Shown here piece after piece: positions 2,729 to 33,896 of a stretch of 64,000 nucleotides of DNA; positions within the stretch are counted from its first letter, which is position 1, and each line of letters starts with the position of its first letter. The position numbers and the translations under genes are program-made. The notes under the pieces are model-generated. The model made no database searches and had not been told where the DNA came from. It saw nothing but the letters and a program-made list of their open reading frames with translations. The DNA comes from Flavivirga eckloniae (GTDB taxonomy: Bacteria; Bacteroidota; Bacteroidia; Flavobacteriales; Flavobacteriaceae): positions 2,929,001 through 2,993,000 of the forward strand of contig NZ_CP025791.1 of NCBI RefSeq assembly GCF_002886045.1, written 5' to 3'.

Positions 2729-2787
2729 TTACTACTAACCATATACATAATTAAATCGATCCTTAGTTTTTCTAAAGATCTTACTTT

Positions 2788-3717: not shown

Positions 3718-3772
3718 TTTTTTAGTTTTTGGTTATATAGTTAAAACAGTTATCTTTTTCTTTACCCTACTT

Positions 3773-16199: not shown

Positions 16200-19100
16200 A
16201 TGAAAAACGTTCTTTTAAGATTAGTACTTTTCTTATTTGCAATAACTACACTTGCGCAGTCTCAAAAGGTGTCCGTTGTAAGTAATGAGGAGGGCATGAA
16301 ATTAGTTGTGAATGGAAAAGATTTCATGATTAATGGTATGAATTGGGATTATTTCCCAATAGGTACCAATTACAATTACAGTCTATGGAAACAATCCGAT
16401 GATGTTATTAAAGCAGCATTAGACGCCGAAATGGGACTGCTAAAAAACATGGGCGTAAATGTTATTAGGCAGTATACAGGCGTACAACCTAAATGGATTC
16501 AATACATCTACGAAAACTATGGAATCTATACCATGCTCAACCATTCCTTTGGTAGATATGGGTTAACAATAAACGGAGCCTGGGTAGCAGTAACAGATTA
16601 CAGAGACCCAGCAACACAGAAACTATTAATATCTGAAGTCTCTCAGATGGCAGAAACCTACAGAAACACACCGGGAATGTTACTGTTCCTCTTAGGAAAC
16701 GAAAACAACTATGGTTTGTTCTGGGCAGGAGCCGAAACCGAAGATTTTCCAGATGAAGAAGATAAGAAGCGGGAAGTCGGCGAAAAGCGGGGAAGACCCA
16801 TGTATAAGCTAATGAATGATGCCGTGCTTAAAATGAAGTCCATTGATGCATCGCATCCAGTGGCCATTTGTAACGGAGATTTATTGTTTGCAGATATTAT
16901 AGCAGAAGAATGTAAAGACGTAGATATTTATGGCGTAAACATGTATCGAGGTAAATCTTTTGGAGACGCTTTCGAACGCGTTAAAAAAGAATTGAACAAA
17001 CCCATCATGTTTACCGAATTCGGATGCGATGCATTTAATGCCAAAACCAATCAAGAGGACCAAAAGATGCAAGCATTTTTTATGGTAGAAAACTGGAAAG
17101 AGATCTACCAAAATGCTGCTGGGTTAGGAAAATCAGGAAATTCGATAGGAGGTTTTACCTTTCAGTTTAGCGACGGATGGTGGAAATTTGGTCAAACTAA
17201 AAACCTTGATATTCACGATACTAACGCATCCTGGTCAAACGGAGGCTACTACTTAGATTTAGATCCAGGAGAAAACAATATGAACGAAGAGTGGTTTGGT
17301 ATTTGTGCCAAAGGACCAACAAACGAAAGAGGACTTTACAGTTTATACCCAAGAGCAGCATACTACGCCTTAAAAGAAGCACATAGCCTAGATCCTTATG
17401 CCAAAGATGTAACCTCAGATTTTGTTGATAATTATTTCAACAATATAGAGCTAATGGACGCTGTACTTAGGGCAAGAGGCGATAAAGCCGCACTTGGAGC
17501 AACTAGCGCTGGTAAAGTAAGATTAAGCAATTTACGCGCTGAGTTTACCACATTTAGTACAGGAGGTACTTTATTAACAACCCCAGAGACTGCAAATCCA
17601 GATGAAGCAGCATTTCCTAATCAGCTTGGTTTTGACCACATGCAATCTTATTATGTTGGTGTTGAAGGGAATCCAACCTCAAACATGCGTGCAGAAGTTA
17701 ATTTCAATATTCTTGGTAATGTAGCACAAAACCCTATTAATGAGATATTTTACGAGAACGTAGGTAGACCAGTTAAAGTTATCAATACAAACGGCGAAGA
17801 AGTTATTATTACAGATAACAATAGAGTGAGGGTGTACAATGCTGAGTTTGAATGGAACTCTAAAGTGGCAGATGTAAGAGGGTTTTACAGAACCGGCCAC
17901 TACCACTGGGGGTATGAAGGCGATTTCTTTGGCTTATACCCAGAAGCTAATTACGGCCCTAACCTAGACATATACAACGGAGAAATTCTAGGTGTAGAAG
18001 TAGATGGTAAAAAAGCCTTAAAAGGACTAAAAGCAGCTTTTGGACCACAATTATGGTGGGGAGCAAATCCAACGATATTATTAAAATACAGAACTCATTT
18101 TAAGCATTGGGATATTACTGGTATTTATCATAGAGATTTAGATACGAGCCTAGAATTTGACGATAATGGACTACGATTTTTAAATGCTAATCAGGTACAA
18201 AGTGGTGTTATTCCACCTTGGCCCACAGAACGTGCGACCATAGTTTTAGAAAGAGACTTTGGAGCCTTTGGTATTTCATTAGGAGGTATCTGGGGAGGAA
18301 GTCCTCTTAACGGTAGTACATTTCAAGATGTAACAGGTGAATCTGGAAACTATGTAGTATATCAAGATAAAATCAACTCAGATGATAACTGGGGCGGGAA
18401 AGCCAAAATAACCTATGAAAAAGGACGATTTAATTTCTATGCACAAGCGGCATATATGGGATTGGTTGCCAATGGAGGCGCAGATGCTACAAGAACATTT
18501 ACAGGTTGGAAACTTAAAGATTCTGGAAGTGGCAATCAAACCAACATACTTTCTGGTTTCACATACAGCATTGGAGATTGGCAAATAGCACCAAATTTCC
18601 TTTGGCAAAAACCTTTAGTAGATCCTATGCCTAATGATGTAACCGCACCAGGAAGATTAAGAAACTTTATTGATGATCCATTCGCTGTAAGAGGTAACAG
18701 AGAAACCACAGCAGGAGAATTACTCTTAACCTTCGATCCAACACCTGGATCCTGGTTTTATGAGTGGGACAATGATCGGGCGGAAGATGCAAAATTGGCT
18801 TTTAACTTAGGTTTTGTATTTAGACATCAGCCAACATCACAAGATGCGCATATTGGGTTTTTAGCAAATCGTACCTTTTTTGCTTTTCCGCAGGCTGCGC
18901 CAGCACAAGACCTCTGGGAATTAAGTTCTCGTGTTGTTTCTAAAGTAAGTCCAGACTTAGGGATCATTGGAAATCTTTATGGAGGCAACGCTCAGGCAAA
19001 TGGTGATAGTGACAGAACTATAGAACGCTTTGGTGGTAACATCAAAATGATATACAAAAAGTGGAAAATAGAATACGGTTTCAAAGTTAACGATTGGGGG

Positions 19101-19379
19101 CCTTTTGATTACCATCGTGATTTCAACTTGACTTTCCCTGTACAAAACATGATCGATATTTCTACGTCCATAGGTAAGCCTGATTGGTTTATTCTTCCAG
19201 ATACTAAAATAGGTGTCCGTGGTACTTGGCGTTCCTTAAATGAAAACTCACCTAGATATTCACCTATTGCTGTTCCTCCAAACACGTTTCCAGCTATACC
19301 GCCAATTAGCCCTGTTGGATTTGATGATGGAAATGAGTGGGAAATCAGAACATATATACACATCAATATTGGTAAATAA
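16200..19379 (+). CDS. Glycoside hydrolase (clan-A TIM barrel) fused to a predicted outer-membrane beta-barrel
   Basis: This 1059-residue exported protein has a signal peptide (residues 1-20). Residues about 30-395 form a GH2-like/clan-A TIM barrel with the expected catalytic pair: acid/base Glu168 in LLGNENNYG and nucleophile Glu273 in MFTEFGCDAF. From about 430 to the end, the sequence alternates aromatic and polar strands with Gly/Asn/Asp turns (FNFYAQAAYMGL, LAFNLGFVFRH, WKIEYGFKVNDWG). It ends in a strand EWEIRTYIHINIGK, the pattern of an outer-membrane beta-barrel. There is no SusC or SusD in the locus, so this fusion may be both pore and enzyme. The substrate is inferred from its GH16/GH17/GH30 neighbours to be a beta-1,3-glucan. 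The exact GH family is uncertain; GH72-like transglycosylation is an alternative. Confidence 0.75.
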   Translation: MKNVLLRLVLFLFAITTLAQSQKVSVVSNEEGMKLVVNGKDFMINGMNWDYFPIGTNYNYSLWKQSDDVIKAALDAEMGLLKNMGVNVIRQYTGVQPKWIQYIYENYGIYTMLNHSFGRYGLTINGAWVAVTDYRDPATQKLLISEVSQMAETYRNTPGMLLFLLGNENNYGLFWAGAETEDFPDEEDKKREVGEKRGRPMYKLMNDAVLKMKSIDASHPVAICNGDLLFADIIAEECKDVDIYGVNMYRGKSFGDAFERVKKELNKPIMFTEFGCDAFNAKTNQEDQKMQAFFMVENWKEIYQNAAGLGKSGNSIGGFTFQFSDGWWKFGQTKNLDIHDTNASWSNGGYYLDLDPGENNMNEEWFGICAKGPTNERGLYSLYPRAAYYALKEAHSLDPYAKDVTSDFVDNYFNNIELMDAVLRARGDKAALGATSAGKVRLSNLRAEFTTFSTGGTLLTTPETANPDEAAFPNQLGFDHMQSYYVGVEGNPTSNMRAEVNFNILGNVAQNPINEIFYENVGRPVKVINTNGEEVIITDNNRVRVYNAEFEWNSKVADVRGFYRTGHYHWGYEGDFFGLYPEANYGPNLDIYNGEILGVEVDGKKALKGLKAAFGPQLWWGANPTILLKYRTHFKHWDITGIYHRDLDTSLEFDDNGLRFLNANQVQSGVIPPWPTERATIVLERDFGAFGISLGGIWGGSPLNGSTFQDVTGESGNYVVYQDKINSDDNWGGKAKITYEKGRFNFYAQAAYMGLVANGGADATRTFTGWKLKDSGSGNQTNILSGFTYSIGDWQIAPNFLWQKPLVDPMPNDVTAPGRLRNFIDDPFAVRGNRETTAGELLLTFDPTPGSWFYEWDNDRAEDAKLAFNLGFVFRHQPTSQDAHIGFLANRTFFAFPQAAPAQDLWELSSRVVSKVSPDLGIIGNLYGGNAQANGDSDRTIERFGGNIKMIYKKWKIEYGFKVNDWGPFDYHRDFNLTFPVQNMIDISTSIGKPDWFILPDTKIGVRGTWRSLNENSPRYSPIAVPPNTFPAIPPISPVGFDDGNEWEIRTYIHINIGK

Positions 19380-19391
19380 AATAAAACTAAG

Positions 19392-20819
19392 ATGAAAAAT
19401 ATAAAATTTACATATACAAAAATGATCTGCCTTTTAGGATTCATTTTTACAATTTTAGTAAGCTGCGAAAGAGAATTGTCTGATGAAGCCGTATTTGCAA
19501 CATTCCCAAACACAGCAGAAGTTTTTACGGACGCCCCTGTTGGTTTAGGTACTAATTTTTATTTTCCTTATATCGGATCAAAAGCCACAGCCTGGTCAGT
19601 AGATAATGAGGTAAGCTATGAAGGTACTGCATCTATGCGTTTTGATGTGCCAAATGCAAACGATCCTAATGGAAATTATGCTGGAGCCATCTTTAGAATC
19701 GATGGGGAAGGCTCTGGTAGAGATTTATCAGGTTTTGATGCCTTAACGTTTTGGGCAAAGGCTTCTCAGGCTGTTACGATAGGAGAAGTGGGGTTTGGCG
19801 AAGATTTTGGTGAAAATAAACATATCGTTACCAGAACAAATATAGACTTAACAACAAATTGGATAAAATATATTATTCCTATCCCAGACCCGTCTAAGTT
19901 GATTCAAGAACGTGGCATGTTAAGATACTCTGCAGGAGGTATAGGTCCAGTAGGTAGCGAAGTAGGATACACTTTTTGGATAGATGAGGTTAAGTTTGAA
20001 AAACTAGGAACTGTTGCTCAATCACAACCTTTTATTTTAGGCGGTCAGGATGTTGAGCAACAATCTTTTAATGGCAGTGAAATAGACTTGGCAGCTAGTG
20101 GTCTTACACAAACGTTTAATGTCAATGGAAGCAATGTAACAGTAAATACCACACCAGCATATTTCTCCTTTTCTTCATCAACACCAAATATCGCTTCGGT
20201 AAATGAAAAAGGGTTGGTTACTATTCTTAATCAAGGCACAACAGTCATAACGGCTGTTTTAGCAGGTGTAGCTGCTAAGGGTTCTTTGAAAATAACATCG
20301 AGTGGTGATTTACCAGATTCCCCAGAACCAACAAGACCAGAGGCTAATGTTAAATCTATTTATAGTGATACATACGCAACAGAAACTGAAAGTAATTTTA
20401 ATCCAGGTTTTGGAGGTTCGACCACACAAACTACAGAAGCAACTTCAAATGGTAATAATGTTCAAATCTATACCAATAACAATTTTACTGGTATCATTTT
20501 TAACAATACTGTAGACGCATCAGCACTAACTCATCTTCATGTTGATGTTTATACGCAACAATCAGATACTAATTTTGAAATACAAATACGAGATATTGGT
20601 GGAAATGGAGAACTAGAAACAAATGTTTTCAATGGCGCTCCCGATGGAGACGATAAAGATTTCAGGTTTACTGTTTCAGGTTTAACTCAAGGTGTCTGGA
20701 CATCTTTCGATATTCCACTAGGCGGTGATATAGCTACTCAAAAAAATAATTTAGGTGCTCTTATATTAGCAGGTGGCCCTGATTTCATATTGGACAACAT
20801 TTACTTCTACACAGAATAA
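19392..20819 (+). CDS. Surface glycan-binding lipoprotein with CBM-like modules
   Basis: This 475-residue lipoprotein has a lipobox (LVSC, Cys25). An N-terminal jelly-roll-like domain (about 40-205) has DLSGFDALTFWAKA and a YTFWIDEVKFEKLG end strand. A bacterial Ig-like (BIG_2) segment with NEKGLVTILNQGTTVITAV follows at about 210-305. A C-terminal module (about 313-475) contains ANVKSIYSDTY, SGLTQGVWTSFDIPL and FILDNIYFYTE. That last module is homologous to the triple repeat of the protein encoded at 21721. The protein probably captures beta-glucan at the cell surface. It lies 12 bases after the fusion enzyme gene and just before GH16. Confidence 0.8.
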   Translation: MKNIKFTYTKMICLLGFIFTILVSCERELSDEAVFATFPNTAEVFTDAPVGLGTNFYFPYIGSKATAWSVDNEVSYEGTASMRFDVPNANDPNGNYAGAIFRIDGEGSGRDLSGFDALTFWAKASQAVTIGEVGFGEDFGENKHIVTRTNIDLTTNWIKYIIPIPDPSKLIQERGMLRYSAGGIGPVGSEVGYTFWIDEVKFEKLGTVAQSQPFILGGQDVEQQSFNGSEIDLAASGLTQTFNVNGSNVTVNTTPAYFSFSSSTPNIASVNEKGLVTILNQGTTVITAVLAGVAAKGSLKITSSGDLPDSPEPTRPEANVKSIYSDTYATETESNFNPGFGGSTTQTTEATSNGNNVQIYTNNNFTGIIFNNTVDASALTHLHVDVYTQQSDTNFEIQIRDIGGNGELETNVFNGAPDGDDKDFRFTVSGLTQGVWTSFDIPLGGDIATQKNNLGALILAGGPDFILDNIYFYTE

Positions 20820-20851: not shown

Positions 20852-21700
20852 ATGAATAAAAAGCATACATATAAAATGAGAACAAAAACACTGTTCTTGA
20901 TGTCCTTCTTGATGATTTCCTTTTTTGTGATATCCAGCTGTGAAACTGATGAAACACAAACTGTAGCTACGTTCACAGAGCTCGTTATGGCAGATGAGTT
21001 TGATACCGATGGTGCTCCTAACTCAACAATTTGGGGGTTTGATATTGGTACAGGACAAAACGGTTGGGGTAATAACGAGTTACAATATTATACAGATCGT
21101 TCAGAAAATGTAACCGTACAGAATGGCGTATTGATAATAACAGCTAAAGAAGAGGCCTTTAATGGTGCTTCTTATACCTCAGCAAGATTGTTAACTAAAG
21201 GAAAGTTTGAACAAACCTATGGGCGTTTTGAAGCTCGTATCAGGTTGCCTTATGGAAAAGGGCTTTGGCCAGCATTTTGGTTGTTAGGTGACGATTCTAA
21301 TGGTACAGAAGTATGGCCACAAATTGGAGAAATTGATATTATGGAATATGTTGGAAGTGAACCAACTATAATGTTTGGTACCGTTCATGGTCCAGGTTAT
21401 TCAGGAGGTCAATCTATAGGTAAGCCTTATCAATTAGAGAACGATAGGTTTGATACTGGATTTCACATTTTCGGAATAGAATGGGGACCAGATTATATCA
21501 ATTACTATGTAGATGATATATTATACAATCAGATAACTCCAGATGATGTTCCCGGAGAATGGGTGTTTAATCGAGGCCCTTTCTACATTATATTAAACGT
21601 AGCCGTTGGAGGCCAATTACCAGGTGCACCAAATGCAGAAACCGTATTCCCTCAAACTATGTTGGTAGACTATGTACGTGTTTATAATAGAAGAAACTAA
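20852..21700 (+). CDS. GH16 endo-beta-1,3-glucanase (laminarinase), lipoprotein
   Basis: This 282-residue lipoprotein (lipobox ISSC, Cys30) is built almost wholly of a GH16 beta-jelly-roll. The catalytic signature GEIDIMEYVG is present, with nucleophile Glu160, Asp162 and acid/base Glu165. The substrate-cleft motifs WGNNELQYYTD and GLWPAFWLLG are typical of bacterial laminarinases rather than agarases or carrageenases. It should cut internal beta-1,3 bonds of laminarin at the cell surface. A second in-frame ATG at 20876 would shorten the signal by eight residues. It lies between two glycan-binding lipoprotein genes. Confidence 0.93.
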   Translation: MNKKHTYKMRTKTLFLMSFLMISFFVISSCETDETQTVATFTELVMADEFDTDGAPNSTIWGFDIGTGQNGWGNNELQYYTDRSENVTVQNGVLIITAKEEAFNGASYTSARLLTKGKFEQTYGRFEARIRLPYGKGLWPAFWLLGDDSNGTEVWPQIGEIDIMEYVGSEPTIMFGTVHGPGYSGGQSIGKPYQLENDRFDTGFHIFGIEWGPDYINYYVDDILYNQITPDDVPGEWVFNRGPFYIILNVAVGGQLPGAPNAETVFPQTMLVDYVRVYNRRN

Positions 21701-21720: not shown

Positions 21721-24700
21721 ATGAAAACTATAACAAAAACATTTAAATATATATCCATTTTGATATTGGCATTATCCTTCAATGCATGTGAAGATGATGA
21801 TGCCGTATTACCAAGAGTTGAAGCTGGTTTTAGTTATACTGTTGATATGAATACGGGAACCGTAACCTTTATCAATATATCAGAAAACGCAAATACCTAT
21901 GAATGGAATTTTGGAGATGATGACACATCTACTCTTATTAATCCAGTAAAAGTTTACACCAATGGTACTTACACTATTACACTTAAAGCCCTGAATGTTG
22001 CAGGAGCATCTGATACATTTGAAGATAACATTGAAATATCGATTCCAGAAGCCGTTGCGTTTCCAATTTCATTCGATTCGAACAATGTAAATTATGGTGG
22101 TGATCCTTTTAGTGGCGCTTCTTTTGCAATAGTAGATAACCCCGACCCTTCAGGGTCAAACACTGATGCTTCAAAAGTTGGAGCATTAACCAATAGCGGA
22201 GCTACTTTTGAAGGTATTGCTTTCGAGTTAGGAACTTCAATAGACCTATCTACAGAAAAAACCATAAAAATGGATTTTTGGTCAGACGCTCCAATAAGCG
22301 TACTGCTTAAACTTGAAATTTCAGAAAATGATTTTGTCGAAGTTACGGTTAATCATGGCGGTACAGGATGGGAAGAATTATCTTTTAACTTCTCCGACTC
22401 GGGAACATATCCTAAACTCGTAATTTTTGTAGATGGTCCGGGTACAGCCTCAGGAACTTTTTACTTCGATAATTTAGAGCAAGTTGAAACAGATACTACT
22501 GGTGGGGCATGTACAGATACACCTGTTGCCGCAACCGCATTCCCTGTAGATTTTGAAGCATGCGAATCTTTTATAGACTCATTTGCAAACGATGGAAGTA
22601 TTACCACTGAGCTTTCGGGCAACCCAGATAAAACAGGTGTAAACACTTCAGATAATGTATTAAAAGTCGTTAAAGCTAACGGAACTAATAGATGGGCTGG
22701 ATTTCAAAATGCATTTCCTGAAAATTTTGATGCTACAAAAACACTTAAGGTAAAGGTATACTCATCTAAAGCTAATGCTGTTATGAAATTTGAGGTAAAT
22801 AGCAACCCTCAACCTGCTGGCTCTGGAAACCCCGGACCTCAATATGCAACTATAACAGATGCTAACACTTGGACTGAAGTAGAAGTAATGTTTACAGGAA
22901 TACCTGGTAATAATACAGGTCTTAATCAATTGGTTATAAAACCAGATAATCCAGATGGTACAGACGGTACCTTAACAGATTCTGAAGAAACTTATTATTT
23001 TGATGATATTTCCTTTGGTGACGGAGGTGGTACATCTACAGAACCATCAATGGCAGCTCCAACACCAACTCAGGATGCTGCGAATGTTAAATCTGTATTT
23101 AGTGATGCATATACCGATATAGCGGGTACTAACTTAGATACCAACTGGCAAGGTGATTTAGTTTCCGAAACAGTATCTATTCAAGGTAATAATGCCATAA
23201 AATATAGCAATGTAAAATTCATAGGCATGCAATTGGCAGGAGATACTGATTTCTCTGATATGGAATTTTTACATGTCGATATTTGGACGCCGGATGCTAC
23301 GGTATTAGAAATAACGCCAATAAGCCCTCCAAACGAATTATTAGTCGGCTTACCAAGTTTAACACAAGGTGAATGGAAGAGTTACGACATTCCGGTAACT
23401 GATTTTACAGGGGTTGATTTTACTAAAATATTACAGTTCAAAATTGATGCACAAAAAGGTGTGAATCCGGCTGTGGTTTATATGGACAACCTGTATTTCT
23501 ATAAATCAGGATCAACTGGTGGTGGCACAGAACCAACCATGGCTGCTCCAACACCAACCCAAGATGCAGCAAATGTAAAATCTGTATTTAGTGATACATA
23601 TACCGATATAGCAGGTACTAATTTAGATACCAATTGGCAAGGTGATTTAGTTTCTGAAACTGTAGCTATTCAAGGTAACGATGCCATAAAATATAGGAAT
23701 GTAAAATTCATTGGAATGCAATTGGCAGGAGATACCGATTTCTCTGATATGGAATTTTTACATGTCGATATTTGGACGCCGGATGCCACCGTTCTAGAAA
23801 TAACCCCGATAAGCCCTCCAAACGAATTATTAGTCGGCTTACCAAGTTTAACACAAGGTGAATGGAAGAGTTACGACATTCCGGTAACTGATTTTACAGG
23901 GGTTGATTTTACTAAAATATTACAGTTCAAAATTGATGCGCAAAAAGGCGTTAATCCAGCTGTGGTGTACATGGACAACCTGTATTTCTATAAATCAGGA
24001 CCAGCACCTACAGAGCCAACCATGGCAGCACCAACACCAACTCAGGATGCTGCAAATGTAAAATCTGTATTCAGCGATACTTACACAGACATAGCAGGTA
24101 CTAATTTAGATACCAACTGGCAAGGCGATTTAGTTTCTGAAACTGTAGCTATTCAAGGTAACGATGCCATAAAGTATAGTAATGTAAAGTTTATAGGCAT
24201 GCAGTTGGCAGGAGATACCGATTTCTCCGATATGGAATTTTTACATGTCGATATTTGGACGCCAGATGCCACCGTTTTAGAAATAACCCCGATAAGCCCT
24301 CCAAACGAATTATTAGTCGGCTTACCAAATTTAACACAAGGTGAATGGAAGAGTTACGACATTCCAGTAACTGATTTTACAGGGGTTGATTTTACTAAAA
24401 TATTACAGTTCAAAATTGATGCGCAAAAAGGCGTTAATCCGGCTGTGGTTTTCATGGATAACCTGTATTTCTATAAATCAGGATCAACTGGTGGTACAGG
24501 AGGTTGTTCAGGTTCACCTGTAGCGGCAACAGCATTCCCAGTAAATTTTGAAAGCTGCGAGTCTTTCATCAGCACCTTTGCTAATGATGGAAGTATTACA
24601 ACAGAGCTTTCGGCAAATCCAGCAAAAACAGGAATAAATACTTCAGATAATGTATTGAAAGTCGTTAAAGCTAACGGAACAAATAGATGGGCTGGTTTCC

Positions 24701-25017
24701 AAAACCCATTCCCTAGTAATTTTGATGCTACTAAAACATTCAAGTTTAAAGTGTATTCAACCAAAGCGAATGTTGTCATGAAATTTGAGGTAAATACCAA
24801 TCCTCAACCTCCTAGTTCTGGAAACCCTGGACCACAATATAGAACCATAACAGAAGCTAATACCTGGACAGAGATCGAAGTAGTATTTACAGGAATCCCA
24901 GGTAATAACACAGGACTTAATCAACTGGTTATAAAACCAGATAATCCAGATGGTACAGATGGTACGCTTACAGATTCTGAAGAAACCTACTATTTTGATG
25001 ATATAAGACTTGAATAA
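21721..25017 (+). CDS. Large multi-module glycan-binding lipoprotein (PKD plus repeated CBM-like modules)
   Basis: This 1098-residue lipoprotein (Cys23 followed by EDDD) has no visible catalytic motif. Order: PKD domain (about 33-110, with YEWNFGDDDTS); a jelly-roll-like domain (about 111-258); module B1 (about 264-434); three tandem near-identical C modules (about 441-596, 604-757, 765-920); and module B2 (about 929-1098), about 80% like B1. Each B contains GTNRWAGFQN and ends YYFDDI; each C contains LTQGEWKSYDIPVTDF and MDNLYFYKSG. The C module is related to the C-terminus of the lipoprotein encoded at 19392. It probably is a multivalent surface receptor that holds glucan for GH16. A terminator follows directly. 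Confidence 0.83.
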   Translation: MKTITKTFKYISILILALSFNACEDDDAVLPRVEAGFSYTVDMNTGTVTFINISENANTYEWNFGDDDTSTLINPVKVYTNGTYTITLKALNVAGASDTFEDNIEISIPEAVAFPISFDSNNVNYGGDPFSGASFAIVDNPDPSGSNTDASKVGALTNSGATFEGIAFELGTSIDLSTEKTIKMDFWSDAPISVLLKLEISENDFVEVTVNHGGTGWEELSFNFSDSGTYPKLVIFVDGPGTASGTFYFDNLEQVETDTTGGACTDTPVAATAFPVDFEACESFIDSFANDGSITTELSGNPDKTGVNTSDNVLKVVKANGTNRWAGFQNAFPENFDATKTLKVKVYSSKANAVMKFEVNSNPQPAGSGNPGPQYATITDANTWTEVEVMFTGIPGNNTGLNQLVIKPDNPDGTDGTLTDSEETYYFDDISFGDGGGTSTEPSMAAPTPTQDAANVKSVFSDAYTDIAGTNLDTNWQGDLVSETVSIQGNNAIKYSNVKFIGMQLAGDTDFSDMEFLHVDIWTPDATVLEITPISPPNELLVGLPSLTQGEWKSYDIPVTDFTGVDFTKILQFKIDAQKGVNPAVVYMDNLYFYKSGSTGGGTEPTMAAPTPTQDAANVKSVFSDTYTDIAGTNLDTNWQGDLVSETVAIQGNDAIKYRNVKFIGMQLAGDTDFSDMEFLHVDIWTPDATVLEITPISPPNELLVGLPSLTQGEWKSYDIPVTDFTGVDFTKILQFKIDAQKGVNPAVVYMDNLYFYKSGPAPTEPTMAAPTPTQDAANVKSVFSDTYTDIAGTNLDTNWQGDLVSETVAIQGNDAIKYSNVKFIGMQLAGDTDFSDMEFLHVDIWTPDATVLEITPISPPNELLVGLPNLTQGEWKSYDIPVTDFTGVDFTKILQFKIDAQKGVNPAVVFMDNLYFYKSGSTGGTGGCSGSPVAATAFPVNFESCESFISTFANDGSITTELSANPAKTGINTSDNVLKVVKANGTNRWAGFQNPFPSNFDATKTFKFKVYSTKANVVMKFEVNTNPQPPSSGNPGPQYRTITEANTWTEIEVVFTGIPGNNTGLNQLVIKPDNPDGTDGTLTDSEETYYFDDIRLE
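23041..24485 (+). repeat. Three tandem DNA repeats of ~485 bp within the lipoprotein gene
   Basis: Copies begin at 23041, 23530 and 24013 (spacing 489 and 483 bases). They share long identical stretches even at silent positions, for example around GACGCC(G/A)GATGC and the segment encoding SPPNELLVGL. Such near identity suggests recent duplication or gene conversion, and the copy number may vary between strains. Confidence 0.93.
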
Positions 25018-25113: not shown

Positions 25114-28100
25114 ATGAATAATACAGTTTTTAAAGATGAGCCTAAAATTTCAAATACTATGAATACCATAAAAGGAGATTTAGTAGATTTTGAAAATGAG
25201 ATCTATTACAAGATTACCAATAGTGATGCCATGCGTCCTTTCTTTATGAGCATAGTAAGTGATTCAAATCATTGGATGTTCATATCGAGTAATGGCGGAG
25301 TATCTGCTGGAAGAAAAAACGCCGAGTCTTCATTGTTTCCGTATTACACAGACGATAAAATAACCGAGTCGGCAGACATTACGGGAAGTAAAACCATATT
25401 TCAAATCCATTCAAATGAGAAAATCCACATCTGGGAACCTTTCTCAATACGCCAAATGGGTGTTTACAACATATCAAGAAATATATATAAAAACACCTAT
25501 GGGAATAAAGTGATTTTTGAGGAAATTAATGTTGATTTGGGCTTAACATTCAGGTATCAATGGAATTCTAGTAATGAATTCGGTTTTGTAAAAAAGTCAA
25601 CATTAATAAACAATACATCTTCTAAGATTCGTATTACTGTTTTAGATGGTTTACAAAACATATTGCCTACTGGAGTTACTTCAGATTTACAAAATAGTAG
25701 AAGTAATTTAGTAGACGCCTACAAAAAAAACGAGCTATTGCCCGATTCTGGTCTAGGTGTATATACATTAAGTGCCATAATTGTTGACAAAGCAGAACCT
25801 AGTGAAGCTTTAAAAGCAAATATCGTTTGGTCGGCTGGTTTTGAAAACCCACTTTATTTAATCTCATCAACACAACTTGATAACTTTAGGAGCAAAAAAC
25901 CCTTAAAACAAGAAGTTGATGTAAAAGCCGAAAAAGGAGCCTATTTTGTATCATCGAATATAGATTTAAAAGCAAATTCGGAGAAAAACTGGATGTTTGT
26001 TGCCAATGTAAATCAAACAATATCTGGAGTGGTTGAAATATCAGAAACTATTAAAAACCATGCATATATTTCAGACATTGTAAATGATACTATCGATACT
26101 GGAACAAAACGTTTGATAGAATTAACAGGGGCTTCAGATGGTTTACAACTAACAGCAGACCCTTTAATAAACAACAGGCATTTTTCCAACACGCTGTTTA
26201 ACATTATGCGAGGCGGTATTTTTGATGATGACTATAACATTGAAAAACCAGACTTTATTAAATACATAGCAAACGCCAATAAGCAATTCTTTAGTAAAAA
26301 GAACAGCCAACTAAAAAACTTACCCGAAACATTCACACTTAACTATTTAAAAGACCTTGCAGAACAGGATGTTGATGCTATTTTTAAACGACTTAGTTTT
26401 GAATATTTACCTCTAAAATTCAGTAGAAGGCATGGAGACCCAAGTAGACCTTGGAATAAGTTTTCAATAAATACACATAGCGAAATAGATGGCTCTAAAA
26501 TTTTGGACTACGAAGGTAACTGGCGAGATATTTTTCAAAACTGGGAAGCTCTAGCATATTCATATCCGGAGTTTATAGAAAGTATGATTCATAAGTTTTT
26601 AAATGCCACTACATTTGAAGGCTATAATCCATATCGTGTTACAAAAGATGGTTTCGATTGGGAAGTTATTGAGGAGAACGATCCGTGGTCGTATATAGGC
26701 TACTGGGGCGATCATCAAATTATTTACCTGTTGAAGTTTTTAGAATTTATAGAAAACCATTATCCCGGTAAACTCGAAGCCCGTTTCGATCAAGATATAT
26801 TTGTATACGCCAATGTACCTTATAAAATAAAAAGTTACGAAGACATACTTTCTAATCCTAAAGATACTATTGATTTTGATCATGATCTAGATGCAAAAAT
26901 CAATGAAGCAAAACAAAAAATAGGTGCAGATGGCACTTTACTACAAGATAAAAACAATGCCATCTATAAAGTTAACCTAATTGAAAAGCTTTTAGCCACA
27001 GTACTGGCCAAGGTATCTAATTTTATCCCAGAAGGCGGCATTTGGTTAAACACACAACGTCCAGAGTGGAACGATGCCAACAACGCATTAGTAGGTAATG
27101 GTGTGTCCATGGTTACCCTGTACTATTTAAATCGCTTTTTTAATTTCCTAGAAAAGGTTATCAATACATCTGAAACAAAACAAATTAAAATCTCTGAAGA
27201 ACTTAAACAATTTTTGGATGAAACTGCTTCAATACTTGAAGAAAACAAGCATATTCTTTCGGGAAAAATATCAGATAAAAACAGAAAAACGGTTTTAGAT
27301 GGGCTGGGTTCTGCAGGAAGTAAGTACAGAACAACCATTTATAATAACGGTTTTAACAACAATAAATCTGTAATAACCAAAACCGCGCTTTTAAGTTTTA
27401 TAAAAACCACCAAAGATTATTTACAACATACCATTGATGCCAACAAACGACCTGATAATATGTACCACGCATATAACTTAATGACAGTCGAAAATAAAAA
27501 AGAAGTATCCATATCCTATCTGCCAGAAATGCTAGAGGGTCAAGTGGCTGCTTTAAGTTCCGGTTACCTGGCACCAAAAGACGCATTAGCACTGCTTGAT
27601 GGTTTAAAAAATAGTTCACTCTTTAGAGCCGATCAATACAGTTATATATTATATCCGGACAAAGAATTACCCCGATTTGATAAGAAGAATAATATCCCTT
27701 CTGATAAAGTAGAACAATCCGACTTATTAAAACAATTAATAAAAGACGGTAATACTCATATTATTGAAAAGGATGTTTTAGGGAACTACCATTTTAATGG
27801 TAATTTTAACAATGCCAATAGCTTACAAGAGGCCTTAACAACGCTTTCTAAAGACGCTTATAAATCCCTTATAAAGAAAGATACCGAACTATTATTAGAA
27901 ACTTTCGAAGACATCTTCGATCATAAATCATTCACAGGGCGCTCAGGAACATTCTTTGGCTATGAAGGCTTAGGATCCATTTATTGGCATATGGTTTCCA
28001 AATTACTATTAGCCGTTCAAGAAAATTGTTTATTAGCAGTAAACACGAATAAAAATGAAAAGCTTATTGGGAAGCTTTTAGATCATTATTATGAAATAAA

Positions 28101-28572
28101 TGCAGGTATAGGTGTACATAAATCACCCGAACTTTACGGAGCTTTTCCAACCGACCCTTATTCTCATACACCAGCAACCAAAGGTGCGCAACAACCTGGA
28201 ATGACAGGTCAGGTAAAAGAAGATATTCTAAGTAGAATTGGCGAACTGGGTGTTTTTGTAAAAAATGGATGTATCACATTCAATCCTTGTTTACTACGTA
28301 AAGAAGAGTTTTTAAAAACCCCTAAAGTTTTCAGATACAGTGATGTTAAAAAAGAGGAATGGGAAATACTATTAGACCCAAATACACTTTGCTTTACTTA
28401 TTGCCAAGTGCTAATTATATATAAGCTTTCAGATAAAAATAGCTTAAACGTAATTTTTAATAATGACAGACAATTGAACTTTGATAATTTAAGTCTTGAT
28501 TCAAAAATTTCAGAATCAATATTTCAAAGAAAAGGGCAAATAAGCCAGATAAATGTATTGCTAAAAAGATAA
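25114..28572 (+). CDS. Predicted beta-1,3-oligoglucan phosphorylase (GH149-like)
   Basis: This 1152-residue protein has no signal peptide, so it should be cytosolic. Length and layout fit GH149 phosphorylases: an N-terminal beta-sandwich region (about 20-330, with WMFISSNGGVSAG and IHIWEPFSIRQMGVY) and an (alpha/alpha)6 catalytic part. That part has DPWSYIGYWGDHQ and RPEWNDANNALVG, the latter like the GDWND acid motif of related GH94 enzymes, making Asp654 the likely general acid. Such enzymes split beta-1,3-glucan oligosaccharides with phosphate into glucose 1-phosphate. The neighbours (GH16, GH17, GH30, sugar symporter) support this. An alternative ATG lies at 25159. GH94 or GH161 membership is possible but the size fits GH149 better. 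Confidence 0.72.
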   Translation: MNNTVFKDEPKISNTMNTIKGDLVDFENEIYYKITNSDAMRPFFMSIVSDSNHWMFISSNGGVSAGRKNAESSLFPYYTDDKITESADITGSKTIFQIHSNEKIHIWEPFSIRQMGVYNISRNIYKNTYGNKVIFEEINVDLGLTFRYQWNSSNEFGFVKKSTLINNTSSKIRITVLDGLQNILPTGVTSDLQNSRSNLVDAYKKNELLPDSGLGVYTLSAIIVDKAEPSEALKANIVWSAGFENPLYLISSTQLDNFRSKKPLKQEVDVKAEKGAYFVSSNIDLKANSEKNWMFVANVNQTISGVVEISETIKNHAYISDIVNDTIDTGTKRLIELTGASDGLQLTADPLINNRHFSNTLFNIMRGGIFDDDYNIEKPDFIKYIANANKQFFSKKNSQLKNLPETFTLNYLKDLAEQDVDAIFKRLSFEYLPLKFSRRHGDPSRPWNKFSINTHSEIDGSKILDYEGNWRDIFQNWEALAYSYPEFIESMIHKFLNATTFEGYNPYRVTKDGFDWEVIEENDPWSYIGYWGDHQIIYLLKFLEFIENHYPGKLEARFDQDIFVYANVPYKIKSYEDILSNPKDTIDFDHDLDAKINEAKQKIGADGTLLQDKNNAIYKVNLIEKLLATVLAKVSNFIPEGGIWLNTQRPEWNDANNALVGNGVSMVTLYYLNRFFNFLEKVINTSETKQIKISEELKQFLDETASILEENKHILSGKISDKNRKTVLDGLGSAGSKYRTTIYNNGFNNNKSVITKTALLSFIKTTKDYLQHTIDANKRPDNMYHAYNLMTVENKKEVSISYLPEMLEGQVAALSSGYLAPKDALALLDGLKNSSLFRADQYSYILYPDKELPRFDKKNNIPSDKVEQSDLLKQLIKDGNTHIIEKDVLGNYHFNGNFNNANSLQEALTTLSKDAYKSLIKKDTELLLETFEDIFDHKSFTGRSGTFFGYEGLGSIYWHMVSKLLLAVQENCLLAVNTNKNEKLIGKLLDHYYEINAGIGVHKSPELYGAFPTDPYSHTPATKGAQQPGMTGQVKEDILSRIGELGVFVKNGCITFNPCLLRKEEFLKTPKVFRYSDVKKEEWEILLDPNTLCFTYCQVLIIYKLSDKNSLNVIFNNDRQLNFDNLSLDSKISESIFQRKGQISQINVLLKR

Positions 28573-28582
28573 AAGCAAGCAG

Positions 28583-29872
28583 ATGAAAACGAATTTAAAA
28601 AAACTCCTATTACTAACCATTTTAATTGCAACAATTGGATGTGCAAATAAGTCTAAAAAAGCAAGTGAAAAAGTGATTGAAGAAAAACATATAACTGCAG
28701 CAGATATTTTAGGTAACCCCAAATACTTAGCCATTTCATATGGTGGTTATAGGCAGGTATCACGAGATATCCAACCAACCATCCCACAGTTAAAAGAAGA
28801 TATGAAAATATTGGCTGCTATGGGTATTAAAATATTACGTACTTACAATGTACAACTGCAGCAAGCCCCTAACATACTAAAAGCCATTAGTGAATTAAAA
28901 AACGAAGATCCTACTTTTGAAATGTACGTTATGCTAGGTGCATGGATTGATTGCCAAAATGCATGGACAGACAAAGCGCCTAATCATGACGTTGAGAGTG
29001 AAAACAACGCCGCAGAAATTGAAAGAGCGGTGTCTCTGGCAAAGACATACCCAGACATTATAAAAATAATAGCCGTTGGGAATGAAGCCATGGTAAACTG
29101 GGCAGCAAGCTATTTTGTTCGCCCCAATATGATACTAAAATGGGTAAACCATTTACAAGAATTAAAAAAAGCCGGAGAACTTCCCCAATCGTTATGGATT
29201 ACCAGCTCCGATGATTTTTCCTCCTGGGGTGGTGGAGATGCCAGTTATCATACTAAAGACCTGGAAAAACTAATCAATGCAGTCGATTATATTTCTATGC
29301 ATACCTATCCGATGCATAATTCTCATTATAATCCGGAATTTTGGTTATCCCCAGAAAACGAAATAGACCTTACAGATAGCGAAAAAATAGAATCTGCTAT
29401 GCAGCGAGCTCTTGCCTTCGCAAAAAAACAATACGATAGTGTTACCAACTACATGAAAAGCTTGGGTGTAAATAAGCCTATTCATATAGGAGAAACAGGT
29501 TGGTCAACAACCTCTAACGGGCATTACGGCAAAAACGGATCGAGAGCTACAGATGAATATAAGTCTGGACGTTACCACGAATTAATACGAAACTGGACCA
29601 ATAAGGCAAACATTTCCTGCTTCTACTTTGAAGCATTTGATGAGCAGTGGAAAGATGCTGCAAACAAACTAGGATCAGAAAACCATTTTGGTCTTATAAA
29701 CTTAAAAGGTCAGGCAAAATATGCCCTATGGGATATGGTTGACAGAGGCCTTTTTGATGGATTGACAAGAGATGGTAACCCAATAACAAAAACCTACAAT
29801 GGAGACAAAGAAGCGTTAATGCAGGAAGTTTTGGTCCCGCCAACTCATGCAGAATTTAGTACAACACATTAG
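28583..29872 (+). CDS. GH17 beta-1,3-glucanase-type lipoprotein
   Basis: This 429-residue lipoprotein (IGC, Cys20) has a GH17 TIM barrel. LAISYGGYR opens the first strand, and ILRTYNVQLQ, the acid/base motif AVGNEAM (Glu168) and the nucleophile motif IGETGWST (Glu304) are all present. EAFDEQWKD closes the barrel, as in plant and bacterial GH17 enzymes. It probably releases small oligosaccharides from laminarin chains in the periplasm or at the surface. It follows the phosphorylase gene by 10 bases and precedes GH30 by 10 bases, so it is in one operon. Confidence 0.9.
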   Translation: MKTNLKKLLLLTILIATIGCANKSKKASEKVIEEKHITAADILGNPKYLAISYGGYRQVSRDIQPTIPQLKEDMKILAAMGIKILRTYNVQLQQAPNILKAISELKNEDPTFEMYVMLGAWIDCQNAWTDKAPNHDVESENNAAEIERAVSLAKTYPDIIKIIAVGNEAMVNWAASYFVRPNMILKWVNHLQELKKAGELPQSLWITSSDDFSSWGGGDASYHTKDLEKLINAVDYISMHTYPMHNSHYNPEFWLSPENEIDLTDSEKIESAMQRALAFAKKQYDSVTNYMKSLGVNKPIHIGETGWSTTSNGHYGKNGSRATDEYKSGRYHELIRNWTNKANISCFYFEAFDEQWKDAANKLGSENHFGLINLKGQAKYALWDMVDRGLFDGLTRDGNPITKTYNGDKEALMQEVLVPPTHAEFSTTH

Positions 29873-29882
29873 TTTTTAAATA

Positions 29883-31379
29883 ATGAACATGAAACTTTTA
29901 ACATATTATTTCTACTGTCTTTTATTCACGATGATGAGTTGTATCAATACAGAAAATAAACTACGGGTCGAAGTTTTCGAAACTTCCGCCAAAGGAAATC
30001 AACTAACTAAAATTACTGAGTTCCTTGACTCTGATACGAAAGTAACCATCAAACTAACTCCAGAACAAACTTTTCAAACCATCACAGGTTTTGGAGGTGC
30101 TTTTACCGAGTCTTCGGCTTACCTATTAAACAAGTTAAGTAAAAAGAATCGCGATACAATTTTGAGAGCCTATTTTGCTAAAGAAGGCGCTAGATATTCC
30201 TTAACGAGAACACACATGAACTCATGCGATTTCTCGTTAACCAACTATTCGTACTCGCCTGTAGAAGGAGATAAAAACCTAGAACACTTCACCATCGAGG
30301 AAGATAGGGACGATTTAATTCCAATGATAAAAGATGCCATAGCCATATCAGAAGACGGTTTCAAAATATTCGCATCGCCATGGACCGCAGCACCCTGGAT
30401 GAAAGATAACAACCATTGGGTAGGAGGCAAACTGCTCCCGGAATATTACGATACCTGGGCTTTGTTCTTTTCCAAATACTTAGATGCTTATAAAGCAGAG
30501 GGTATCGACATTTGGGGGTTTACCGTTGAAAATGAACCTCATGGAAATGGTAATAACTGGGAAAGCATGCATTTTTCTCCAAAGGAAATGACCGATTTTG
30601 TTCAGTTTCACTTAGGGCCAAAATTAGAAAATGACGGGTATGGCGATAAAATTATTTTAGGTTACGATCAAAACAGAGCAGGTTTAAAAGAATGGGTTGA
30701 TGAAATGTATCGCGACGAAGCATCATCAAAATATTTTGATGGTACGGCTATACATTGGTATGAAAGCACTTATGATTATTTCCCAGAAGCACTCCAATAT
30801 GCACACTATAAAGCCCCAGACAAATACCTGATAGAAACCGAAGGATGTGTGGATTCTGAAATACCTAAGTGGCAAGACGATGCCTGGTATTGGAGTAAAG
30901 AAGCAACAGATTGGGGGTGGGATTGGGCCTCCGAAGCCGAAAAATATCTTCATCCTAAGTATGCACCCGTAAACCGATATGCGAGAGACATCATCGGGTG
31001 CTTAAATAACTGGGTTGATGGGTGGGTAGACTGGAATATGGTCTTAGATAGGCAGGGAGGCCCTAATTGGTTCAAAAACTGGTGCGTTGCACCTGTTATT
31101 GTTGATCCTGATGCAGATGAAGTCTACTTCACACCGATTTATTATATCATGGCTCACTTTAGTAAATACATTAGACCTGAAGCAAAAATAATTGGTCATG
31201 AAAATTCAGACGATACCCTCATGGTAACAGCGGCCATAAACCCTGACGACACTACAACTGTGGTGATTTTCAATGAAACAGAAGTTCCAAAAAACATTAA
31301 CCTGTCTGTGAACGGTAAAACTGTGGATTTTGCAATAGACGCCAAGGCGATTCAAACTGTTGTAATTCCTAAAGCATAA
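29883..31379 (+). CDS. GH30 beta-glucosidase/beta-1,6-glucanase-type lipoprotein
   Basis: This 498-residue lipoprotein (MMSC, Cys20) has a GH30 (beta/alpha)8 barrel with a C-terminal beta-sandwich. Seen: ITGFGGAFTESSAYLL near the start, FASPWTAAPWMK, acid/base Glu218 in TVENEPHGNG, nucleophile Glu320 in LIETEGC, and WVDWNMVLDRQGGP. GH30 members in marine laminarin loci remove beta-1,6-linked glucose branches, which fits this locus. The in-frame ATG two codons later (29889) is also possible. Linkage specificity is inferred from context, not read from the sequence. Confidence 0.9.
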   Translation: MNMKLLTYYFYCLLFTMMSCINTENKLRVEVFETSAKGNQLTKITEFLDSDTKVTIKLTPEQTFQTITGFGGAFTESSAYLLNKLSKKNRDTILRAYFAKEGARYSLTRTHMNSCDFSLTNYSYSPVEGDKNLEHFTIEEDRDDLIPMIKDAIAISEDGFKIFASPWTAAPWMKDNNHWVGGKLLPEYYDTWALFFSKYLDAYKAEGIDIWGFTVENEPHGNGNNWESMHFSPKEMTDFVQFHLGPKLENDGYGDKIILGYDQNRAGLKEWVDEMYRDEASSKYFDGTAIHWYESTYDYFPEALQYAHYKAPDKYLIETEGCVDSEIPKWQDDAWYWSKEATDWGWDWASEAEKYLHPKYAPVNRYARDIIGCLNNWVDGWVDWNMVLDRQGGPNWFKNWCVAPVIVDPDADEVYFTPIYYIMAHFSKYIRPEAKIIGHENSDDTLMVTAAINPDDTTTVVIFNETEVPKNINLSVNGKTVDFAIDAKAIQTVVIPKA

Positions 31380-31409: not shown

Positions 31410-32975
31410 ATGTCGAATATTAAAACTACAGTAAAAGATAGAGTTCCTATAGGTCAAAAAGCAGCCTTTGGTGCTGGACATTTTATACTAAACATTTTAC
31501 CTGGAACTTTAGGTGTTTTTATTCAATTCTTCTTACTTACCGCTTGGGGTGTAGACCCCTTATGGGCTGGACTTTTGGGAGGTTTACCAAGAATATTTGA
31601 TGCTATTACAGATCCTATAATGGGTTTTATATCAGACAATACGAAATCTAAATGGGGACGGCGACGACCTTACATCTTTTTAGGAGCGATAATAAGCGGT
31701 ATACTTTTCTTTTTAATGTGGCAGATTGACGACAATGCTTCGCAAACGTATATTATTTGGCATGTTATGGTTCTTCAAATTCTATTCCTTGTAGGAAACA
31801 CCATGTTTGCCACGCCTCTGGTAGGTTTGGGTTATGAAATGACTTCAGACTATAATGAGCGTACACGTTTAATGGCATTTTCGAATACAATGGGACAAAT
31901 TGCCTGGATGATTGTTCCTTGGTTATATGTTATTATACCAGATTCGAACACATTTAATACACAAACCGAAGGTGTGCGAACTATGGCCCTTATTGTTGGT
32001 GCGATGTGTGTGGTTTTTGGAATTCTGCCTTCTCTGTTTTGTAAAGGTATCGACTCTGCACACATGGAGAACAGAAAAGAAATTAATTTTAAGACACTTG
32101 CATCCAATATGAAAGAATTGTTTAAAGGCATAGCTCAAGTGTCCAAGAACAAACCATTTATGAAATTATGCGGAGCTACCTTTTTAGTCTTTAACGGATT
32201 TCAACTTGTGGCGGCATTTGGTGTATTCATTATTGTATTTTACATGTATAATGGCAGCTATGAAATGGCAGGTACTTGGCCCGCTTGGTTTAATACGATT
32301 AATGCCATAATTACCGCCTTTATTGTGATACCCATTATTTCAAAAATGGCTAATAAATGGGGAAAGAAAAAAGCTTTCATAATTTCCACGGTTTTATCGA
32401 TTGCAGGCTACTTGTTAAAGTGGTGGGGGTTCGATAAAGAATTAAACAACAAGTTTAATGAAACGGGATTAGGTAAAGGGTTAAATTCTGGTGTTGGTGC
32501 ATTGTTCGAGTCTTTAAATCCAATGCTAGATAAAATTGGTATGTCTTGGTTTAGCATAGACCCAGGAAGTGAAATACCTTGGTTAATATTTTTACCTATT
32601 CCATTATTTGCGTTCGGAATGGGAGGCCTGTTTACCTTAATGATGTCTATGACGGCAGATGTTTGCGATTTAGATGAACTAAAAAACGGTATGCCACGTA
32701 AGGAAGGTACTTTTGGCGCAATTTATTGGTGGATGGTCAAATTAGGACAAGCCATTGCACTCGTTTTAGGCGGATTGATTTTAAAGATCGTAGGCTTCGA
32801 TCCGAATGTTACCGAGCAAACCTTAGAGACAATGAATAGGCTTAGAGTAGCTGATATTGTAATTCCCTCACTTACTGCAGCCCTAGCTATTTGGGTGATG
32901 TGGAAATATAGTCTTAGTGAATCAAGAGCTAAAGAAATTAAAGCAGAATTAGTAAAACGAAGAGGTGAACTTTAA
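31410..32975 (+). CDS. MFS/GPH-type sugar:cation symporter
   Basis: This 521-residue protein has about 12 membrane segments and the MelB-type signature RIFDAITDPIMGFISDNTKS followed by WGRRRPYIF, which marks glycoside-pentoside-hexuronide symporters. It should carry small glucan oligosaccharides or glucose across the inner membrane. It lies between the GH30 gene and the cytosolic GH17 gene with short gaps (30 and 12 bases), so transport and intracellular processing are coupled. A long loop near residues 340-390 between two membrane segments is slightly larger than usual. Confidence 0.92.
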   Translation: MSNIKTTVKDRVPIGQKAAFGAGHFILNILPGTLGVFIQFFLLTAWGVDPLWAGLLGGLPRIFDAITDPIMGFISDNTKSKWGRRRPYIFLGAIISGILFFLMWQIDDNASQTYIIWHVMVLQILFLVGNTMFATPLVGLGYEMTSDYNERTRLMAFSNTMGQIAWMIVPWLYVIIPDSNTFNTQTEGVRTMALIVGAMCVVFGILPSLFCKGIDSAHMENRKEINFKTLASNMKELFKGIAQVSKNKPFMKLCGATFLVFNGFQLVAAFGVFIIVFYMYNGSYEMAGTWPAWFNTINAIITAFIVIPIISKMANKWGKKKAFIISTVLSIAGYLLKWWGFDKELNNKFNETGLGKGLNSGVGALFESLNPMLDKIGMSWFSIDPGSEIPWLIFLPIPLFAFGMGGLFTLMMSMTADVCDLDELKNGMPRKEGTFGAIYWWMVKLGQAIALVLGGLILKIVGFDPNVTEQTLETMNRLRVADIVIPSLTAALAIWVMWKYSLSESRAKEIKAELVKRRGEL

Positions 32976-32987
32976 AAATTAGAAGTT

Positions 32988-33896
32988 ATGTCGTACAGAG
33001 CAGATAAAATAATGGCCTTAACTGGAGCTGAACTTAATAATAGAACAACCAAAGGCTTAGAAAATATATTTAAAAGAATACTAAAAAATGGTATGCATGG
33101 GTTGTGTTTTAGCCCTTATGAAGAAGGTCAAAAACCAGGTGATCAAATTACCGAAGGACAAATTAGACGCCGAATGAAAATTATAAAGCCATATACCAAA
33201 TGGATACGGTCGTTTTCCTGCACAGATGGTAATGAATTAATTCCTGTTATCGCTAAAGAGTTTGGCATTAAAACCTTGGTAGGTGCTTGGTTGGGAAATG
33301 ATGCGGATATTAACCGCAAAGAAATAGCAGGTCTTATTGAGTTAGCCAAACAAGGCTATGTAGATATTGCAGCCGTTGGAAACGAGGTAATGTATAGAGG
33401 TGACCTAACCGAAGAAGAGCTTTTAACATTTATATACGAGGTAAAGGAAAAAATTTCCAATATTCCTGTTGGTTATGTTGATGCCTATTATGAATTTACG
33501 CAAAGACCAAATATAACAGAAGCCTGCGATATTATCCTGGCCAATTGTTATCCTTACTGGGAGGGTTGTAGTAATGAATACGCATTAATTTACATGAAGG
33601 ACATGTTTAACCAAGCACTTAAAGCAGCCAATGGAAAAAAAGTTATTATATCCGAAACAGGATGGCCAAGTGAAGGAGAAGGTCTAAACGGCGCCTTGCC
33701 CTCTTATGAAAATGCTATGAAATACTTCATCAATGCACAACAATGGTCCAAACAAGATAATATTGATATTTTTTATTTTTCGTCTTTTGACGAATCATGG
33801 AAAGTAGGAGACGAAGGAGACGTTGGTGCATTTTGGGGTGTATGGGATAAAGATGAAGTACCAAAGTTCTACAGGAAATCTCTGGCTCTGAAATGA
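32988..33896 (+). CDS. Cytosolic GH17-family protein
   Basis: This 302-residue GH17 barrel has no signal peptide. Catalytic motifs are intact: AAVGNEVMYRG (Glu133) and IISETGWPSEG (Glu223), with FYFSSFDESWKVG closing the barrel. A cytosolic GH17 is unusual next to a lipoprotein GH17 in the same operon. Bacterial GH17 domains can act as transglycosylases, as in NdvC-type cyclic glucan synthesis, so it may remodel or shorten imported beta-1,3-oligosaccharides ahead of the phosphorylase. It is the last gene of the locus, 12 bases after the symporter gene. Confidence 0.88.
   Translation: MSYRADKIMALTGAELNNRTTKGLENIFKRILKNGMHGLCFSPYEEGQKPGDQITEGQIRRRMKIIKPYTKWIRSFSCTDGNELIPVIAKEFGIKTLVGAWLGNDADINRKEIAGLIELAKQGYVDIAAVGNEVMYRGDLTEEELLTFIYEVKEKISNIPVGYVDAYYEFTQRPNITEACDIILANCYPYWEGCSNEYALIYMKDMFNQALKAANGKKVIISETGWPSEGEGLNGALPSYENAMKYFINAQQWSKQDNIDIFYFSSFDESWKVGDEGDVGAFWGVWDKDEVPKFYRKSLALK

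Follow-up and report, generated by a model that had tools for sequence, protein, structure and literature searches.

In a 64,000-nucleotide window of the Flavivirga eckloniae genome (NZ_CP025791.1, positions 2,929,001 to 2,993,000), we identified a gene whose product joins a clan GH-A glycoside hydrolase (GH) to a predicted outer-membrane β-barrel in a single reading frame. The catalytic pair of the enzyme is unvarying among its close relatives, the barrel co-occurs with an adjacent lipoprotein, and the host genome contains no SusC/SusD pair of the type found beside related fusions (hereafter, locus-type). On balance, the unplugged barrel with its glucanase on the periplasmic side, the lipoprotein and a surface GH16 enzyme probably constitute a compact uptake module for laminarin-like β-1,3-glucan. 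The fusion most likely admits β-glucan fragments and cuts them on entry, a role for which we infer both the pore function and the enzyme activity.

The open reading frame spans positions 16200-19379 (+) and encodes 1059 aa; read in the same register, the opposite strand contains many stops. In an alignment of 65 sequences, comprising the query and 64 others at 69-92% identity to it, the clan GH-A pair N167-E168 and E273 does not vary. The GH2-type TIM barrel profile of Pfam, PF02836, matched residues 33-286 with 33.9 bits (cut-off 21), and neither the N-terminal sugar-binding domain PF02837 nor the Ig-like domain PF00703, the sandwich domains typical of GH2, matched the protein at E ≤ 0.01. 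A search of the PDB with the single sequence gave no match at E ≤ 1, and relatives of the enzyme part were reachable only by profile search. GH158 leads both the fold list and the profile search (E 1.7e-12 and 4.5e-11). Like BuGH158 (6pal) and GH158(Pro) (9oro), the domain is a clan-A TIM barrel with an Asn-Glu acid/base and a Glu nucleophile; set against N136, E137 and E220 of BuGH158, in the parts of its description consulted, the strand 4 Asn-Glu and the strand 7 Glu are both present. Identity is only ~19%, however, and BuGH158 ends in an Ig-like domain where the fusion has its predicted barrel. From the fold and the gene context, the fused enzyme would be specific for β-glucan.

To model the protein, we used alignments of the window sequence with 64 of 80 related loci, which were kept from at least 585 relatives in a scan of species genomes. 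AlphaFold2 predicted ~24 strands from residue 440 in the full fusion protein (pLDDT 72.3, pTM 0.54), and residues 404-1059 alone gave pLDDT 75.2 and pTM 0.73. By title, the 50 matches that Foldseek lists for the C-terminal part are membrane β-barrels, as are the 50 from VIA-align; one of them, VDAC, is mitochondrial. When strands are delimited as in the model, their two-sided hydrophobic pattern is stronger than in any of 5000 permutations within strands and in any of 2000 sets of equal-length segments drawn from the TIM-barrel domain. Pfam holds no credible family for the C-terminal 659 residues, the sole match having an E of 0.084 and lying under its cut-off; NCBIfam has no family for the barrel, and a profile search of the PDB matched nothing in this part. 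Profiles of TonB-dependent importers, PF07715 and PF00593, had no Pfam match in the protein, and the predicted barrel has no plug. We also considered an outer-membrane usher of the chaperone-usher type, likewise a 24-strand barrel, and rejected it as the protein did not match the usher profile. The C-terminal part is therefore, by prediction, a closed transmembrane outer-membrane barrel, and its reading as an open, sugar-conducting porin is a prediction as well. An earlier note on this DNA had given the same coordinates, named Glu168 and Glu273 as the catalytic pair and proposed the fusion of the two barrels. Positions and residues were right, and prediction upholds the fusion, with a C-terminal part that resembles membrane barrels and not a soluble sandwich or propeller.

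The strongest new evidence that barrel and lipoprotein belong to one module is their co-occurrence. At all 79 loci with visible sequence, the lipoprotein is encoded by the next recognised gene after the fusion, at a gap of at most 218 nt; the 80th locus, where the sequence stops 75 nt past the fusion, was left out. In a tree of 61 enzyme domains, with two contig-end rows not counted, a lipoprotein profile match lies nearby in 47/47 fused rows and in 0/12 stand-alone rows. This profile also picks up the carbohydrate-binding modules (CBMs) of PKD proteins, and so errs towards finding; what it hits in genome G144 is a related CBM protein encoded on the opposite side of the fusion. The tree requires at least five changes between the fused and stand-alone states, most simply one gain followed by several losses, and in five of five independent pairs the presence of the lipoprotein matches that of the barrel. 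Because they are present together and missing together, barrel and lipoprotein look like one outer-membrane module, and the protein seemingly does not work alone, contrary to the earlier suggestion of a single protein.

The barrel is present in 35 of 395 sampled Bacteroidota genomes, the host included. It sits in one fused frame in 32, is split by contig ends in G204 and is broken in G119 and G235; counting G204, 33 genomes carry the fusion. A single-sequence search found no intact free-standing barrel among the 395 genomes, and a profile of 65 barrels returned the identical 35 genomes and no free-standing relative. The enzyme occurs in 46 of the 395: fused in 33, broken in one (G235), as stand-alone close relatives in nine and as distant ones in three. 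Within the nine, that of G332 is cut N-terminally by the contig and that of G119 is trailed by a decayed barrel remnant. Fusion decay is visible at two loci, L203 (G119), where the open enzyme frame precedes a remnant with stops, and L158 (G235), where the gene lies in pieces. Two of the distant stand-alone relatives (L160 in G077 and L162 in G139, 21-24% identity) sit amid GH17, GH149 and MFS genes, which links this clan-A family to glucan loci beyond the fusion. Among 72,556 plasmid records, two carry the enzyme, a Persicobacter megaplasmid and a Bacteroides finegoldii record, and the core of fusion, lipoprotein and GH16 recurs in both. The B. finegoldii record (L207, NZ_OY725931.1), named plasmid 29, bears genes for valine-tRNA ligase and ribosomal protein S1 (rpsA) and is thus probably a piece of chromosome. 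In the fusion locus that it provides for a gut species, GH16 and BglX are present and SusC/SusD are not annotated; its enzyme shows 64% and its barrel 54% identity, and its lipoprotein matches the profile at E 1.7e-123.

No SusC profile match (TIGR04056) was found within the window, and by the SusC/SusD-based definition the locus is not a polysaccharide utilization locus (PUL). Elsewhere, same-strand SusC and SusD genes flank an intact fusion at 24 of the 68 loci with at least 9 kb upstream, a count that leaves out an opposite-strand SusC (L035) and an opposite-strand SusC/SusD pair (L080) and includes L040 and L071, in which the regulator stands between the pair and the fusion. Identity to the SusC of L014 is 44-78% for 22 of the remaining 23, two of which are fragments at 51-53%, and 33% for that of L008. 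The host genome has no orthologue of this locus-type pair, its best SusC and SusD reaching 37% and 34% identity, respectively; on these values we rejected a hidden locus-type pair elsewhere in the host that serves the fusion, although an unrelated pair may do so. SusC/SusD are missing from the upstream flank at 44 loci; for 22 of these we searched the genome, scoring the best 32 candidates in each. Locus-type SusC at E ≤ 1e-200 was absent from 21 of these 22 genomes and present in that of L044; positive controls were recovered in 3/3 cases. The fusion therefore exists with or without a locus-type pair. The absence of SusC/SusD claimed by the earlier note thus holds for the window and, as regards the locus-type pair, for the genome, but not as a property of the fusion. 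SusC/SusD also occur beside some stand-alone enzymes (L155, L197 and L202 (G123)), and neither was matched in the stretches from B. finegoldii and Persicobacter. At another place in the host genome (L149, C1:3382001-3402000), a GH16 gene lies near a SusC/SusD pair and a hybrid two-component regulator. This GH16 is a more distant relative of β-1,3-glucanases, with a best PDB E of 1.3e-23 compared with 1.3e-70 for the GH16 of the fusion locus.

Several of our results weigh against the uptake module. The lead of GH158 is narrow, with a GH2-type glucuronidase at E 3.2e-10 and the GH157 enzyme 9g4n at 7.9e-8, which makes substrate and bond uncertain. Foldseek matches to known barrels have low TM-scores (by query length, 0.23-0.38), confidence in the model is moderate, and the pTM of the full protein says little on how the two domains face each other. 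The lipoprotein was sought in neighbourhoods of unequal length, not in whole genomes, and the co-loss test comprises five events only, the sign p of 0.0625 being the minimum possible with five pairs. As the fusion stands alongside SusC/SusD at 24 of 68 loci, it is not a simple substitute for them. Other SusC proteins abound in the host, with matches at 60 places (some being pieces), and one host SusC/SusD pair is no more than 5 kb away from a different GH16 gene. Lastly, the long outer loops are conserved like the rest of the barrel (0.78 versus 0.79) and could close the pore, and an energy source for uptake is not evident. The SusC/SusD pairs at related loci, the abundance of other SusC proteins in the host and the conserved loops would also fit the main rival, which we regard as unlikely but deserving of weight: the barrel may be a mere anchor or docking platform at the inner face of the outer membrane, perhaps beside SusC/SusD or another transporter, with no sugar passing through it. 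A 620-residue barrel would nevertheless be a costly anchor, given that several stand-alone homologues (L155, L156, L157 and L200) have lipobox-like starts by eye. The lack of locus-type SusC in nearly all tested genomes without a nearby pair also speaks against a simple anchor, and the tie to a lipoprotein of glycan-binding type fits contact with the cell surface better.

Loops that follow odd-numbered strands in the predicted order are for the most part long, three of the twelve having 7, 7 and 13 residues, and those after even strands are short with one exception of 20 residues. This alternation is the usual pattern of outside and inside loops and would place both barrel ends, and hence the enzyme, in the periplasm. 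The C-termini of the nine stand-alone relatives fall at the equivalents of residues ~419-438, inside or at the end of the linker; most of the linker thus belongs to the enzyme, leaving few residues to thread through the pore. Together, the loop pattern and a linker seemingly too short to thread the barrel point to a periplasmic-side enzyme. An autotransporter-like arrangement, with the enzyme displayed on the cell surface and the barrel exporting or anchoring it, appears improbable. The N-terminal position of the enzyme and the helix ahead of strand 1 are as such a protein would have them, and laminarin is large for ordinary porins. However, that helix is mostly enzyme, and a type Va autotransporter barrel has 12 strands where ~24 are predicted here. 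With this strand number and no Pfam match to an autotransporter family, a type Va barrel was rejected.

The locus around the fusion has a catabolic gene content (Table 1). A homologue of the regulator is present at 70 of the 80 loci. Within the PKD gene, three similar 300-nt repeats (88-89% against the reference copy) and another pair (82%) suggest that glycan-binding modules were duplicated. A separate gene set lies on the opposite strand at positions 356-4285 (-), some 12 kb upstream of the fusion. Its TonB-dependent receptor has a domain of the FecR C-terminal type, and the set also includes, by eye, an anti-sigma-like protein and an ECF sigma factor. PADLOC returned no result.

Table 1. 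Coordinates within the window of the fusion protein, its domains and the genes of its locus
Feature	Positions	Strand	Basis or remark
Regulator: two-component-type propeller, weak Y_Y_Y (below cut-off), LuxR-type helix-turn-helix	13051..15858	+	Pfam
Fusion protein, 1059 aa: signal-peptide-like start, clan GH-A TIM barrel, predicted outer-membrane β-barrel	16200..19379	+	Signal peptide by eye
TIM-barrel glycosidase domain, residues 22-400	16263..17399	+	N167-E168 at 16698-16703; E273 at 17016-17018
Helical linker, residues 405-437	17412..17510	+	Predicted helices 406-414 and 418-437; tails of nine stand-alone homologues
Predicted outer-membrane β-barrel, ~24 strands, residues 440-1056	17517..19367	+	AlphaFold2, fold matches, strand alternation
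CBM-like lipoprotein with Ig-like middle, barrel partner	19392..20819	+	Lipobox-like ILVSC; lipobox and CBM-like reading by eye
GH16 endo-β-1,3-glucanase-like, lipoprotein-like start	20852..21700	+	PF00722; PDB matches named laminarinase, β-1,3-glucanase
PKD protein with repeated CBM-like modules	21721..25017	+	Pfam; 300-nt repeats
GH149 β-1,3-glucan phosphorylase	25114..28572	+	NCBIfam NF058639, 1806 bits (cut-off 1150)
GH17 enzyme, lipoprotein-like start	28583..29872	+	PF00332
GH30	29883..31379	+	PF02055 and PF17189
MFS/GPH-type inner-membrane sugar transporter	31410..32975	+	PF13347; GPH family matches below cut-off
GH17-type enzyme without evident signal peptide	32988..33896	+	PF00332

In the uptake module that we propose, the lipoprotein would bind glucan at the cell surface, and the surface GH16 would shorten β-glucan outside. 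Fragments would then enter through the barrel, the passage of sugar being conjectural, and the fused enzyme would cut them at the periplasmic exit, keeping the inward gradient steep. One GH17 would act in the periplasm, the MFS protein would import the products, and GH30, the other GH17 and GH149 would act in the cytoplasm; the places proposed for GH17A, GH30 and GH17B come from the parts consulted of a study of Muricauda (PMC13188888). Export, in which the protein would pass and trim a polysaccharide made by the cell, as in AlgE or Wzi systems, is very improbable, since the neighbours (GH16, GH17, GH30, GH149 and a sugar transporter) are catabolic and, with structure matches within one Z unit counted as tied, porins score about equally well. 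Least credible of all is an ordinary soluble GH2-type enzyme with an unremarkable C-terminal β domain: the database does name the Bacteroides homologue a 'glycoside hydrolase family 2 TIM barrel-domain containing protein', but the sandwich domains of GH2 are missing, the C-terminal fold matches are membrane barrels, and the strand alternation surpasses every permutation.

Laminarin ranks among the largest flows of carbon in the ocean, and Bacteroidota are credited with importing it through SusC/SusD. The recurrence of the fusion, with its lipoprotein alongside, in many marine and gut Bacteroidota suggests an overlooked way of taking up β-glucan, for example laminarin. Going beyond the module itself, we tentatively speculate that a SusC/SusD-free, TonB-independent β-glucan route extends from marine Flavobacteria as far as gut Bacteroides: an unplugged barrel of 24 strands would have a glucanase at its periplasmic mouth and an obligate CBM lipoprotein outside, and hydrolysis at the exit would pull fragments in. 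Such a route would have escaped notice, since locus prediction searches for SusC/SusD and the gene is labelled GH2 by annotation pipelines. If true, there would be a second outer-membrane module for laminarin, built as an enzyme-pore fusion and found also in a gut Bacteroides; genome-based prediction of glycan use would change, and nature would offer a model of hydrolysis coupled to passage through a pore.

Contrary to the earlier note's suggestion of an undescribed system, the locus is already in print as a laminarin locus with the gene annotated 'GH2'. In the sections consulted, the Muricauda study (PMC13188888) describes a LuxR-type regulator, a 'GH2' gene, GH16, a PKD protein, GH149, GH17, GH30, MFS and a second GH17, the same contents and gene order as here; it names the enzyme a GH2 β-glycosidase and, in its discussion, a GH2 β-1,6-glucosidase. 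Muricauda spongiicola 2012CJ35-5, named in those sections, has a single GH149 gene, which lies behind the fusion at L031, so the published cluster is very probably L031 despite the different contig number cited. Genes for GH149, GH16 and GH17 accompany the fusion elsewhere too: at L048, in a metagenome-assembled genome named Formosa sp. Hel1_33_131, the order is fusion, lipoprotein, GH16, PKD, GH149 and GH17. As the consulted part of the Formosa study has it, a PUL 2 GH16 of Formosa sp. Hel1_33_131 was detected on laminarin and not on other substrates (PMC6246565), and we infer that the L048 fusion belongs to PUL 2. The parts consulted of both papers (PMC13188888, PMC6246565) make no reference to a barrel of the outer membrane within the 'GH2' protein. 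Our guess is that the lipoprotein is one of the hypothetical genes of the published laminarin loci. GH149 clusters without susCD have already been mentioned, in the part consulted of a further paper (PMC5827456). By title and abstract opening, we found no description of an enzyme-barrel fusion or a SusC-free route in the open-licence literature; within the literature searched, the outer-membrane barrel, its periplasmic placement of the enzyme, and the constant lipoprotein partner with its co-loss are seemingly new.

The fusion recalls several known systems. A transporter joined to a glucanase of the same pathway is also found in the MFS-GH17 fusion FORMB_24740 of Formosa, as described in the part of that study consulted (PMC6246565), although that transporter belongs to the inner membrane whereas a barrel of the outer membrane is predicted here. 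With SusC/SusD importers the fusion shares an outer-membrane barrel adjoining a surface lipoprotein of glycan-binding type in a glycan locus; it differs in having no plug, no TonB-receptor family match, a CBM-like partner instead of SusD and an enzyme fused to the barrel. Outer-membrane sugar porins and polysaccharide barrels have 16-18 strands. LamB, chitoporin, AlgE, Wzi and OprD resemble the C-terminal part in their barrel fold, and several of them pass or bind sugars; the fusion is set apart from all of these by its ~24 predicted strands, its fused enzyme and a barrel sequence for which no relative was found among them.
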